Positions 44,304 to 47,312 of a stretch of 64,000 nt of DNA are shown here, one piece after another. Source of the stretch: Arthrobacter sp. V1I9 (GTDB lineage: Bacteria > Actinomycetota > Actinomycetes > Actinomycetales > Micrococcaceae); NCBI RefSeq assembly GCF_030817075.1, contig NZ_JAUSYU010000001.1, positions 2,728,001-2,792,000 on the forward strand, in the 5' to 3' direction. The notes beneath the pieces were generated by a model. It saw only the letters and a list, made by a program, of their open reading frames with translations. It was not told the origin of the DNA and searched no databases. Every line of letters begins with the position of its first letter. Within the stretch, counting starts at the first letter, position 1. A program made the translations under genes and the position numbers.

Positions 44304-47300
44304 ATGAGGAAGCACAGTAAAGGAAAATCTGGGGACGCAATGGGGCAAAATTTCATACGTAGGGCCATGTCCCGACTCATACCGCATAGGCGGACAGGCG
44401 GTGGGGGCCTGCTCGGGCAGGTAGCGCTTGACCAAACGCGGCAGGCGGACTCGGCGACGCCAATGTTCGGCGGGGCCGAAGTAGATGAGCCCGTTCCGGC
44501 GCATTCCGGCTCTTCGCACACCGTCCTGACACGCGACTTTCCTGGAATTGCCAGGGAGGAACAGAACCAGGCACCAGCAGTGGCGGGCGGCGTTCAACTC
44601 GAACACCTCAGTCCGGCACTCCATCAAGCAACTTCTGAGGAGGCGAAGCGGACCATCGCTGAGCCGCTCCATCCGACGACGCCGTCCGAGGTGGAAGCCT
44701 TACCACGCATTGAGCCCGCGCCTTTTGATCCACTGGAATACCCCGACGCTCATGCCTGGCAAATAGACGCCCTCGACGCATGGCACAAGAATGGGCGACG
44801 TGGAGTGGTAGAAACACTGACTGGCGTCGGTAAGGTCCGACTTGGTTTGCTCGCCACGGTCGAAGCTCTTCGCCAAGGCATTAAGGTCCTTATTCTCGCT
44901 CCTAGCCCCCAGCTTCAATCTCAGTGGCTTGACCAACTCGAGCTGCACCTTCCTACCGTCCGGACCGGCGCCCCCGAAACTGACGGCCCCGGGTCGGCCG
45001 CCCGCGTCGATGTGCTTGTGGCCTCCGCCACCTCAACTGAACTTGAACGGAACGTCAGGAGCCACAAGGCGGGTTTGGTCATCGTCGATCAATGCGACCA
45101 ATGGGTTGTTCCGGCGTGGGTGGCAGCGGAACCTCAAAACGATTGCAATTGGCGGCTAGGGCTGACGGATCTCTGGGAAGAGCCGTACTCCGCAGATCAG
45201 GAGTATCGGGACCAGCTCTTCGGCGGCATCGTATATTCGCTTCCGTACGACCAGGCGTTAAAGGACGGCGCCATTGCCCCATTCGAAGTTACCCTCGTGG
45301 GCATAGACCTTGCACCCGGAGAATTACAGAAGTACCACGAGCTGTCTGAAGACATGACGGAAGCCGCGCGCTACCTCGACCAATACGCGAATGTCCCAGG
45401 GAGTCCCTTCCAAAAGTTCGCCGTCCAAGTGGCCGCACTCGCCAGGGAGCCCGAATTAAGACCCGTTACAGTTCTGGCCCGGAAATACATGAATTTCAGG
45501 TCCTCCCGACTCGCACTTCTGACCGAGACGAAGACTAAACGCCAGGCACTCGCGACGCTGAACGCTTTTGTCTCCGCCCCGACAGAGGACTGCCCTGACT
45601 CAGCTCCCGGGAACCTGGGAATCGTTTGGCCAGCAAGCGGCACTCGTAAACAACTGGTTCAGCAACTTGCGCGCCTGATCCCGAAAAGGCCGGAAACCCG
45701 CAACGCGCACATCTTCGTCGTTTACGCTAAGGGCACCGCCGAGGACCCCCAGCTCGCAGGCGAGCAGTTCGTTCACCTCCTCCTTCCCCACGCGCAACGG
45801 ATAAACCACATAGACGTTGGAACCGACGCGGGCTCCCTCGGGATGTTTTTCAACTCCCCATCCATGCCCGCGGTCAGGGCCGAGAACTGGCTGGAGAAAA
45901 CTGGTTCAGCTAGGGGTGAAGATCCGACATCGGCAGCAGGTCCCAGCAACGCAGACACGGCATACACGACTGGCGAAAGGGAAGCCAGCACGCTTAGCCC
46001 CAGCATCAATCTGAGCTCCGAAATGTCCCTTGAGGAGAAGAAGGCTGCGACTACCGCCACGCGCGCCGCCACGCGTGCAGCCAACAAGGCCCCAAAGGAC
46101 GCCGCCGCAGCAGAGGGTGGCGATGCCGTTTCCGGAGCCGTCAAGCCTGAGCCCAAGAAGCGCGGGCCCAAGCCCGGCGCCAAAGCCACGGCCGAGGCCG
46201 CCGGCAACTCGTCCGGTGAGCACGACGACGATGCCGAGGTCGATGAGGACCTCGACGACATCACGCCCGACGCCGCCGAGCTCGGCGAAGAAGTCGAAGG
46301 CGAGGAGGTTACCGGCAAGGCTGCAGCGCCCACCGGCTCGGGCTTCGTGTACTCCGACGCCGACGCGCCGGGTCAGCAGGTCATGTCTGCCGGCGCCACC
46401 GCAGACCCCGTCAAGGACTACCTGAAGCAGATCGGCAAGGTCGCCCTGCTGAACGCCGAGCAGGAAGTCGACCTCGCCCTGCGGATCGAGGCCGGCCTCT
46501 TTGCCGAGGAGAAGATCGCCGCCGCCGACGGGTCCATGGACCCCAAGCTCAGGCGTGAGCTCGAATTTGTCATCCACGACGGCAAAAGGGCCAAGAACCA
46601 CCTGTTGGAGGCCAACCTCCGCCTCGTCGTATCGCTGGCCAAGCGCTACACGGGCCGCGGGATGCTGTTCTTGGACCTGATCCAGGAAGGCAACCTGGGT
46701 CTGATCCGTGCGGTTGAGAAGTTCGACTACACCAAGGGCTTCAAGTTCTCCACCTACGCCACCTGGTGGATCCGCCAGGCGATCACTCGTGCCATGGCTG
46801 ACCAGACCCGCACCATCCGCATTCCGGTCCACATGGTGGAAGTTATCAACAAGCTGGCACGCGTCCAGCGCCAGATGCTGCAAGACCTCGGCCGCGAACC
46901 TACCCCTGAGGAACTTGCCCTCGAACTGGACATGACCCCGGAAAAGGTGGTCGAAGTCCAGAAATACGGCCGCGAGCCCATGTCGCTAGACGTGGAAATT
47001 CCTGACGGAACGGGGGAAATGCAACCTTTAGGGCATCTGATCGAAGACACCGACGCCGTCTTGACTCAAGACGCCGTGAGCTTCACCCTGCTTCAGGAAC
47101 AGCTCCACTCGGTCTTGGACACGCTGTCCGAGCGCGAAGCCGGCGTAGTCGCCATGCGGTTTGGCCTCACCGACGGGCAGCCGAAGACTTTAGACGAAAT
47201 CGGGAAGGTCTACGGAGTCACGCGTGAGCGCATCCGTCAGATCGAATCCCAGGCCATGCTGAAACTGCGGGAACCCAACCGTTCGCAGGTGCTGTACGAC

Positions 47301-47312
47301 TATATGGACTGA
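44304..47312 (+). CDS. inactive SF2 helicase fused to a primary-type sigma-70 factor (copy 1)
   Basis: A 1002-aa fusion. Residues 1-140 are a low-complexity leader. Residues 140-510 are an SF2 helicase related to the gene at 62141 but degenerate: Walker A is TGVGKV (173-178, no Thr/Ser after Lys), DECH became DQCD (262-265), TAT became TDL (288-290), motifs IV-V are deleted (about 60 aa), and motif VI is QQLARLIPK. Residues 574-1002 are a complete actinobacterial SigA-like factor: acidic 1.1-like part, region 1.2 from about 701, 2.1-2.4 with [20 protein letters not shown], region 3, and 4.2 with [15 protein letters not shown]. The region from 46023 has host-like high GC, then changes after about 46980. 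It probably binds RNA polymerase core; the helicase part cannot hydrolyse ATP normally. Confidence 0.88.

Follow-up and report, generated by a model that had tools for sequence, protein, structure and literature searches.

Predicted XPB-like helicase-sigma-70 fusions in Arthrobacter, including a SigA-like variant with a degenerate helicase

The 64,000-nucleotide stretch of the Arthrobacter sp. V1I9 genome analysed here (the window; contig NZ_JAUSYU010000001.1, positions 2,728,001 to 2,792,000) contains a gene, window:44304-47312(+), in which a superfamily 2 (SF2) helicase region is joined to a nearly complete primary sigma factor, SigA, in a single open frame of 1002 amino acids (P0001). A sequence-only reading of this DNA had proposed that the two parts form one uninterrupted frame, and this is borne out: the 1002 codons run without a stop or frameshift between the helicase and sigma parts, the other two forward frames contain 19 and 23 stops (counted over the first ~560 codons), and Pfam recognizes both halves, with ResIII at residues 151-288 (3.2e-7) and sigma-70 regions 1.2, 2, 3 and 4 all inside residues 701-990 (1e-12 to 1e-23). 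The start is more likely to be the ATG at 44340 than position 44304, since similarity to the orthologue in a second genome (G107) begins at MGQNF. An ordinary SigA gene is retained elsewhere (C1:2195247-2196512) in this genome, which is a single contig of 4.05 Mb, and P0001 is therefore an extra gene; breakage of the native SigA by island insertion is ruled out by that intact copy, and a sequencing or assembly artefact by the comparable fusions in many separate genomes. The same genome encodes a second helicase-sigma fusion with all of its helicase motifs, which we refer to as type I, with P0001 and its orthologue as type II. Judged by sequence, these proteins belong to an unnamed family in which an XPB/RAD25-type SF2 translocase lies N-terminal to a sigma-70 factor with regions 1.2 to 4.

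Homologous fusions are indeed present in other genomes, as the sequence-only reading required. A search with the helicase half finds a match in 22 of 206 genomes of the genus, comprising 17 full-length type I fusions (801-889 residues as called) and five others: one relic (G122), two broken copies with split frames (G076 and G193), a megaplasmid form that also has an HA domain (G069), and the orthologue of P0001 (G107). Type II is found in two of the 206. A scan of named genomes gave 19 loci, of which three are helicases without sigma (two of them haloarchaeal) and 16 carry both parts, distributed among Arthrobacter/Pseudarthrobacter (ten, two broken), Brevibacterium (five) and Pseudoclavibacter (one). 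At broader levels the helicase is found in 13 of 396 order-level genomes at 1e-40, in 8 of 394 class-level genomes at 1e-60, and in 31 of 396 phylum-level genomes at 1e-60. No sigma was seen in the short flanks of the 27 new phylum-level helicase loci (L187-L213), and we therefore treat sigma-less helicases as background. In one class-level genome (G834) the helicase gene, which itself encodes a sigma region 4, lies immediately ahead of a distinct sigma gene, a split form of the helicase-sigma pair. We also note a locus, L185:3886-11462, where consecutive genes encode an AAA_11/MTES_1575 nuclease-helicase, an XPB-like helicase that includes its own sigma region 4, and a free-standing sigma factor. 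Two fusions are on megaplasmids of 427 and 440 kb (NC_011879.1, L103, and NZ_CP053545.1; one of these is that of G069), and both are annotated only as sigma-70 family factors; the NC_011879.1 fusion, the one megaplasmid copy scanned, has a C-terminal helicase-associated (HA) domain. A phage origin was considered and set aside, as viral contigs gave 19 matches of 22-45% identity, the ten at or above 30% being short, and phage records one weak match.

The best solved-structure relatives of the helicase profile are XPBII, RAD25 and the XPB subunit of TFIIH (4e-45). All seven SF2 motifs (I, Ia, II, III, IV, V and VI) are kept in 17 of 19 representative aligned fusions, and the exceptions are the two of type II. 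All 17 type I genes of the genus were checked afterwards as motif strings, with motifs I, II, III, V and VI present in every one and motif IV in 16 of the 17, its exact string being absent from G165. For region 2.2, the exact string is missing from G207. In P0001 the motifs are degenerate (TGVGKV, DQCD, TDL, QQLARL), and motifs IV and V have gone with a 59-codon deletion; in the G107 orthologue motifs I, II, III and VI are degenerate, as are IV and V. The helicases of P0001 and of its orthologue are thus dead, and the proposal that P0001 carries a translocase-like domain stands for the fusions that retain every motif, this genome's second copy among them, but no working translocase is supported for P0001 itself because the catalytic motifs are lost from both type II proteins. 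In a helicase tree these two form one clade (100/100) that joins the type I fusions of the genus (87/83). An AlphaFold2 model of P0001 has a fairly confident first RecA lobe and low to middling confidence in what remains of the second, and a model of a type I fusion has a helicase part and a sigma part with a low-confidence linker between them. In Foldseek comparisons the helicase part of the type I model matches XPB-Bax1 complexes and the sigma part matches SigA from mycobacterial initiation complexes, and the helicase half superimposes on 6p4f_C over 392 columns with a root-mean-square deviation of 3.3 and a template-modeling score, by target length, of 0.73.

The SigA-like character assigned to the sigma part of P0001 is upheld. 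It passes the NCBIfam equivalog NF004561 for actinobacterial primary sigma factors (705 bits with a cut-off of 582; the second fusion copy, with 374 bits, falls below it), and it is 90% identical to the SigA of its own genome over regions 1.2-4. The N-terminal extension of SigA is represented by residues 575-690, which align best with that of a congener (G019) and share a 22-residue exact match with it, and nearly the whole of SigA is therefore present. The positions that we take, from E. coli sigma70 numbering, to contact core, the melting (-10) region, -12 and -35 are nearly invariant across 19 fusions, and both type II rows have the commonest SigA residue at every listed contact site. Departures are seen in region 2.2 of a single Brevibacterium row, at Q406 of Pseudoclavibacter, at position 440 of all five Brevibacterium rows, and as one E458D; positions 413 and 425 vary among the 19.

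The outlier, where the type II sigma has changed most, is the finger of region 3.2. Its sequence is identical in 21 of 21 SigA rows, and the 23-residue finger of type II departs from it in both lineages. The sigma finger is required for normal initiation. The type II finger scores 24-25 with SigA and 48-56 with six type I fusions and the plasmid form, and a permutation test comparing one type II sequence with one type I sequence gives p 1.7e-4 over 16 residues. A finger likewise unlike that of SigA is seen in a separate SigA-like sigma factor (L027:8843-10000, 385 residues, 80% identical to the P0001 sigma), which clusters with GmrSD, SNF2 helicase, C5 methylase and GHKL ATPase genes. Our sigma tree includes 45 rows hand-picked from distinct rows, leaving out edge-cut loci, near-copies and three short rows of one frameshifted gene (L124, L086 and L036); the G582, G069, Pseudoclavibacter and MzaA-like rows are on long branches, and their exact places carry no conclusion. 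In this tree three helicase-less sigma factors with a fusion-like leader (L020, L024 and L025) are nested within type I (96/91).

The body of the type II sigma has a mosaic history. In the G107 fusion, synonymous divergence (dS) from the SigA of the same genome is 0.12-0.15 over residues 691-892 and 1.15-1.88 outside that tract (with wide intervals), and SigA genes of different genomes (two pairs) differ by 0.39-0.67 in segments within the tract. For P0001 the closest SigA is a G019-like one, with dS of 0.38 over residues 575-690 and 0.33 over 691-770, where SigA pairs give 1.2-1.4 and 0.53-0.67 respectively. These segmental differences show that the host's own SigA has been copied into the fusion in the G107 lineage, and SigA copying has probably occurred in the P0001 lineage too. 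The mosaic would be compatible either with copying that spared the finger or with a fresh SigA fusion followed by a later change of the finger; we dropped an independent SigA fusion as the sole origin of the type II sigma since the finger is type I-like and dS differs from segment to segment. Between P0001 and its orthologue, the ratio of nonsynonymous to synonymous divergence (dN/dS), which averages the whole divergence between the two, is 0.32 in the helicase half, 0.11 in the sigma half and 0.52 over the N-terminal 140 residues; changes are commonest at third codon positions, and some 1000 codons are stop-free in both. These patterns indicate that the frame and sigma part of P0001 are under purifying selection despite the dead helicase. 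For type I, dN/dS is 0.046 (helicase) and 0.088 (sigma) between G000 and G145, and 0.041 and 0.177 between G000 and G010.

The recognized neighbours of P0001 (Table 1) are HNH, Vsr, methylase and DptH-like genes, and several others match nothing. The Vsr, C5 methylase, DptH-like, 477-residue and 815-residue genes (47350-58828) form a module conserved in 12 of the 206 genomes, and it looks, by gene content, like a DptFGH-type restriction module with cytosine methylation in place of Dnd modification. The DndH/DptH-like gene (49368-54939, minus strand) is in two overlapping frames here and in one frame of 1862 residues in G107; in most other carriers of the genus it is ~1850-1893 residues long, and the G101 copy is interrupted by two inserted genes. 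That P0001 is an obligate part of this module is ruled out by its presence beside it in two of the 12. Co-occurrence of a fusion with the DptH-like module is weak (4 of 12 module genomes, p 0.013, ignoring shared ancestry). Nucleoside hydrolase and major facilitator superfamily (MFS) transporter-like genes lie to the left of the island (window 38373-40699); similar-looking genes are found near the Vsr module in G171, and G101 has the transporter only (by eye), suggesting a single insertion site.

Table 1. Features of the helicase-sigma fusion gene and its surroundings, in window coordinates.
Feature	Position	Strand	Basis or remark
Type II helicase-sigma fusion gene P0001	44304..47312	+	1002 residues; orthologue L102:9770-12811 in G107
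Degenerate XPB-like SF2 helicase region (residues 136-530)	44709..45893	+	Pfam ResIII, motifs, tree, model; most of the second RecA lobe deleted, the first retained
SigA N-terminal extension/acidic linker (residues 574-690)	46023..46373	+	Closest to G019 SigA among those compared
Sigma region 1.2	46404..46505	+	Pfam PF00140
Sigma region 2 (core binding, -10 melting)	46602..46814	+	Pfam PF04542, residue check
Sigma region 3	46839..47072	+	Pfam PF04539
Altered sigma finger (region 3.2, residues 893-916)	46980..47051	+	Resembles type I fusions, not SigA
Sigma region 4 (-35 recognition)	47112..47273	+	Pfam PF04545, residue check
Vsr mismatch endonuclease	47350..47760	-	Pfam PF03852
C5-cytosine DNA methylase	47874..49244	-	Pfam PF00145
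DndH/DptH-like ATPase, C-terminal part	49368..51221	-	PADLOC DndH 1.6e-57
DndH/DptH-like protein, N-terminal part	50959..54939	-	Comparison with the single G107 frame
477-residue module protein, family unassigned (DptG-like by position only)	54948..56381	-	Conserved beside the DptH-like gene
815-residue protein, N-terminal PDC-S36 match (DptF-like by position only)	56381..58828	-	Conserved in the module
NERD + UvrD-like helicase	60374..62062	+	Belongs to the type I block
Second helicase-sigma fusion	62081..64000, past window end	+	858-residue frame in L017:5082-7658; likely start ATG 62129

The type I fusions have a different setting. The recognized neighbours of the second copy are NERD, AddB and AddA, several others matching nothing, with the AddB-like and AddA-like genes following the fusion beyond the window end. 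The usual type I block includes an ADP-ribosylglycohydrolase, TY-Chap3, NERD-UvrD, AddB and AddA, and both AddB and AddA are in the block at all 17 type I loci of the genus (the G194 AddB is broken, with AddA in L035). There are two AddB variants with no mutual match at 1e-6, and the position of the fusion within the block differs; P0001 has no AddAB neighbours. AddAB-like genes are nearby at three (L040, L041 and L042) of six distinct Brevibacterium loci, and none were seen at L043 (a short contig), L044 or L110. The fusion co-occurs with AddB variant B above chance (p 3e-7, again ignoring shared ancestry), and we rejected it as an obligate partner of AddAB in that direction, as it is present in 10 of 21 genomes with this variant. 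Genes near AddB were scanned in six of the ten variant B genomes that show neither a fusion nor a solo sigma in the fetched stretch; five have McrBC, type I restriction, YqaJ, DUF6308 or Fic genes and the sixth gave no match. In two genomes that lack a fusion at this place, AddB is adjoined by McrBC or type I restriction genes. The NERD-AddAB block (L238-L247), with its cargo of McrBC, type I restriction-modification, YqaJ and Fic genes, looks from these gene contents like an immunity hotspot of the genus.

We suggest that the fusion acts as a promoter-placed translocase on host RNA polymerase with an accessory anti-invader role, a reading to which we lean tentatively and somewhat short of even confidence. 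A sigma factor with these contacts is expected to bind core and SigA-type promoters, and the fusion would thus bind the host core enzyme and be placed, with polymerase, at SigA-type promoters. We infer that the motor would lie within reach of promoter DNA because it is placed N-terminal to region 1.2; in type I, the attached translocase would act on that DNA and could possibly pass it to the AddAB-like helicase-nuclease of the same block. The altered finger may change initiation or escape and give a promoter-bound holoenzyme that does not ordinarily transcribe. P0001 would be a derived type II form, with a dead translocase, a body near to SigA and a fusion-type finger, that probably still binds polymerase and promoters and serves as a competitor, regulator or decoy. 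The analysis establishes the family and how it is conserved, the genes around it, the dead helicase, the selection and the SigA mosaic; polymerase binding, promoter placement, the finger effect, the AddAB link and the anti-invader role are all what we infer. The earlier suggestion that such a protein couples transcription to defence accords with the Vsr, C5 methylase and DndH/DptH-like ATPase genes beside P0001, but the coupling itself stays a matter of interpretation. The likelihoods that we attach to this reading and to its rivals overlap, and types I and II may differ.

Several observations weigh against the promoter-placed translocase. The models have modest mean predicted local distance difference test scores (68 for type I and 61 for P0001), and invariant DNA-contact residues are equally compatible with an ordinary transcribing sigma. 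The likeness between type II and type I fingers amounts to 9-12 identities in 23 positions and could reflect convergence. Type II is known from two genomes only, and it stands beside the Vsr-methylase-DptH module in only two of 12 (G000 and G107). No AddAB genes are nearby at the Brevibacterium G041, Pseudoclavibacter, G582 and G069 loci, and in the 21 genomes with AddB variant B, counted over the fetched stretches around AddB, ten have the fusion, one has a helicase-less sigma and ten have neither (one contig ends early). The megaplasmid neighbours are annotated as dnaE, pilus-assembly, HNH endonuclease and hypothetical genes, which is not a known defence system.

A bolder version is that the fusion is a one-polypeptide counterpart of sigma plus TFIIH, in which a sigma-70 factor with a built-in XPB translocase brings RNA polymerase to invader promoters and attacks or blocks them there, with a nuclease pair nearby; host SigA would repeatedly overwrite the sigma body while the special finger persists, marking the finger as the switch from transcription to immune factor. 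Taken whole, we regard this as rather unlikely.

The rival that survives best, which we doubt to much the same degree as that bolder version, is a dedicated alternative sigma factor with an ATP motor, transcribing defined genes such as those of its own block or element, with the XPB-like motor opening or regulating promoters as TFIIH does for RNA polymerase II, and with type II as a motor-independent sigma. It draws on the promoter-melting and -35 residues kept in the fusions, on purifying selection in the sigma part, on the annotation of the plasmid copies only as sigma-70 factors, and on the relatives that have sigma without helicase (L020, L024 and L025). These last cut both ways, since melting position 434 is lost in all three, 433 in two and the extended -10 position 455 in all three, which argues against a simple active sigma. 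The finger that normal initiation needs is also the very part of the type II sigma that has changed most, and a consensus promoter scan of 43900-47900 found none, although shared promoters upstream of the blocks were not searched for.

An integrated decoy or sensor is less probable. Here the SigA copy would be bound by phage anti-sigma or polymerase-appropriating proteins, and binding would trigger the attached domain or the neighbours. A type II sigma body near to SigA, in G107 copied from the genome's own SigA, is what a decoy would require, and the dead helicase in both type II copies and the island context are in keeping with it. However, the sigma parts of type I, Brevibacterium and Pseudoclavibacter fusions share only ~38-57% identity with the SigA-like P0001 sigma and would be poor SigA mimics, type II shows no obvious effector domain, and a decoy would not need to retain DNA-contact residues.

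Somewhat less probable again is that P0001 is a decaying, functionless relic, its frame open by chance or because decay is recent, in a locus that is breaking down. The dead helicase with its 59-codon deletion, the neighbouring DptH-like gene split in two frames and the rarity of type II (two of 206 genomes) are as this predicts, and recent decay of P0001 alone would be compatible with a dN/dS averaged over the whole divergence. Nonetheless, both orthologues are stop-free for ~1000 codons, the ratios of 0.32 and 0.11 come with change concentrated at third codon positions, and the catalytic loss is common to the two. A selfish helper, a plasmid or island factor diverting host RNA polymerase to genes of the element, is improbable: it fits the two megaplasmids (427 and 440 kb) and the patchy distribution within the genus, but chromosomal type I blocks have nuclease-helicase genes, two fusion-less blocks have restriction genes, and SigA-type DNA contacts give element promoters no advantage.

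A sigma factor that keeps its promoter contacts and is covalently linked to a DNA translocase, with restriction genes occupying the same block in other genomes, raises the testable hypothesis that immunity may locate foreign DNA through the promoters on it, by means of the RNA polymerase of the host. If the motor does act at promoters, bacteria would have a parallel to the XPB of TFIIH, and the type II mosaic of SigA body, fusion-type finger and dead motor singles out the sigma finger as the part of interest.

The known system closest to the sigma half is MzaA of the MZA (mzaABCDE) anti-phage system (NCBIfam NF041931, PADLOC PDLC02203), likewise a defence-locus protein with a C-terminal RpoD-like sigma; we know of no explained role for sigma factors in such loci. 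The C-terminal half of the MzaA PADLOC model is matched by the sigma part of the five fusions scanned, although P0001 scores 342 bits where the NF041931 cut-off is 800 and covers model positions 453-715 only. The ~400 N-terminal residues of an MzaA-like protein in G049 match no Pfam family, whereas the fusions have the XPB-like helicase there. The closest solved relatives by sequence and, for the helicase half, by fold are the XPB/RAD25/Ssl2 proteins (archaeal XPBII-Bax1 and TFIIH XPB), although the second copy scores 89 bits with the XPB/RAD25 equivalog NF045503, whose cut-off is 610; to our knowledge no XPB/RAD25/Ssl2 translocase is fused to a sigma factor. PbeA, a phosphorothioation-linked defence helicase in PADLOC, matches the fusion helicase half (4.7e-60 for the second copy), although the match spans positions 252-619 of 672 in the second copy and less in P0001, falls short of the whole model and leaves the sigma part unmatched. 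P0001 differs from actinobacterial SigA/HrdB in its helicase fusion, its altered finger and its presence as an extra copy beside an ordinary SigA.

Motors and initiation factors meet in other proteins as well. HelD, a helicase-like factor that recycles RNA polymerase in Gram-positive bacteria and is SF1-type and not fused to sigma, resembles the fusions in being a motor-like protein on RNA polymerase, as we propose for them. According to two reports, HelD is a motor-like RNA polymerase binder that in mycobacteria binds together with the primary sigma factor (PMC7749167, PMC11464796). Within immunity, published work describes a sigma-type helix-turn-helix (HTH) in BrxL (PMC12839542) and in some DndH (PMC10853773), and a TATA-binding protein (TBP) in TOTE (PMC12458937), similarly placing initiation-factor modules in fusion with, or encoded beside, DNA motors and nucleases; these modules, as far as those texts describe them, are small sigma-related HTH domains or TBP, whereas the fusions carry a sigma with regions 1.2 to 4. 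Among the literature matches listed, which leave most subscription papers outside the searched set, no helicase-sigma-70 fusion is described. A sigma factor in defence, as in MzaA, and PbeA-like helicases in defence are thus both known, and it is their covalent union, not described in that set, that is the new part.

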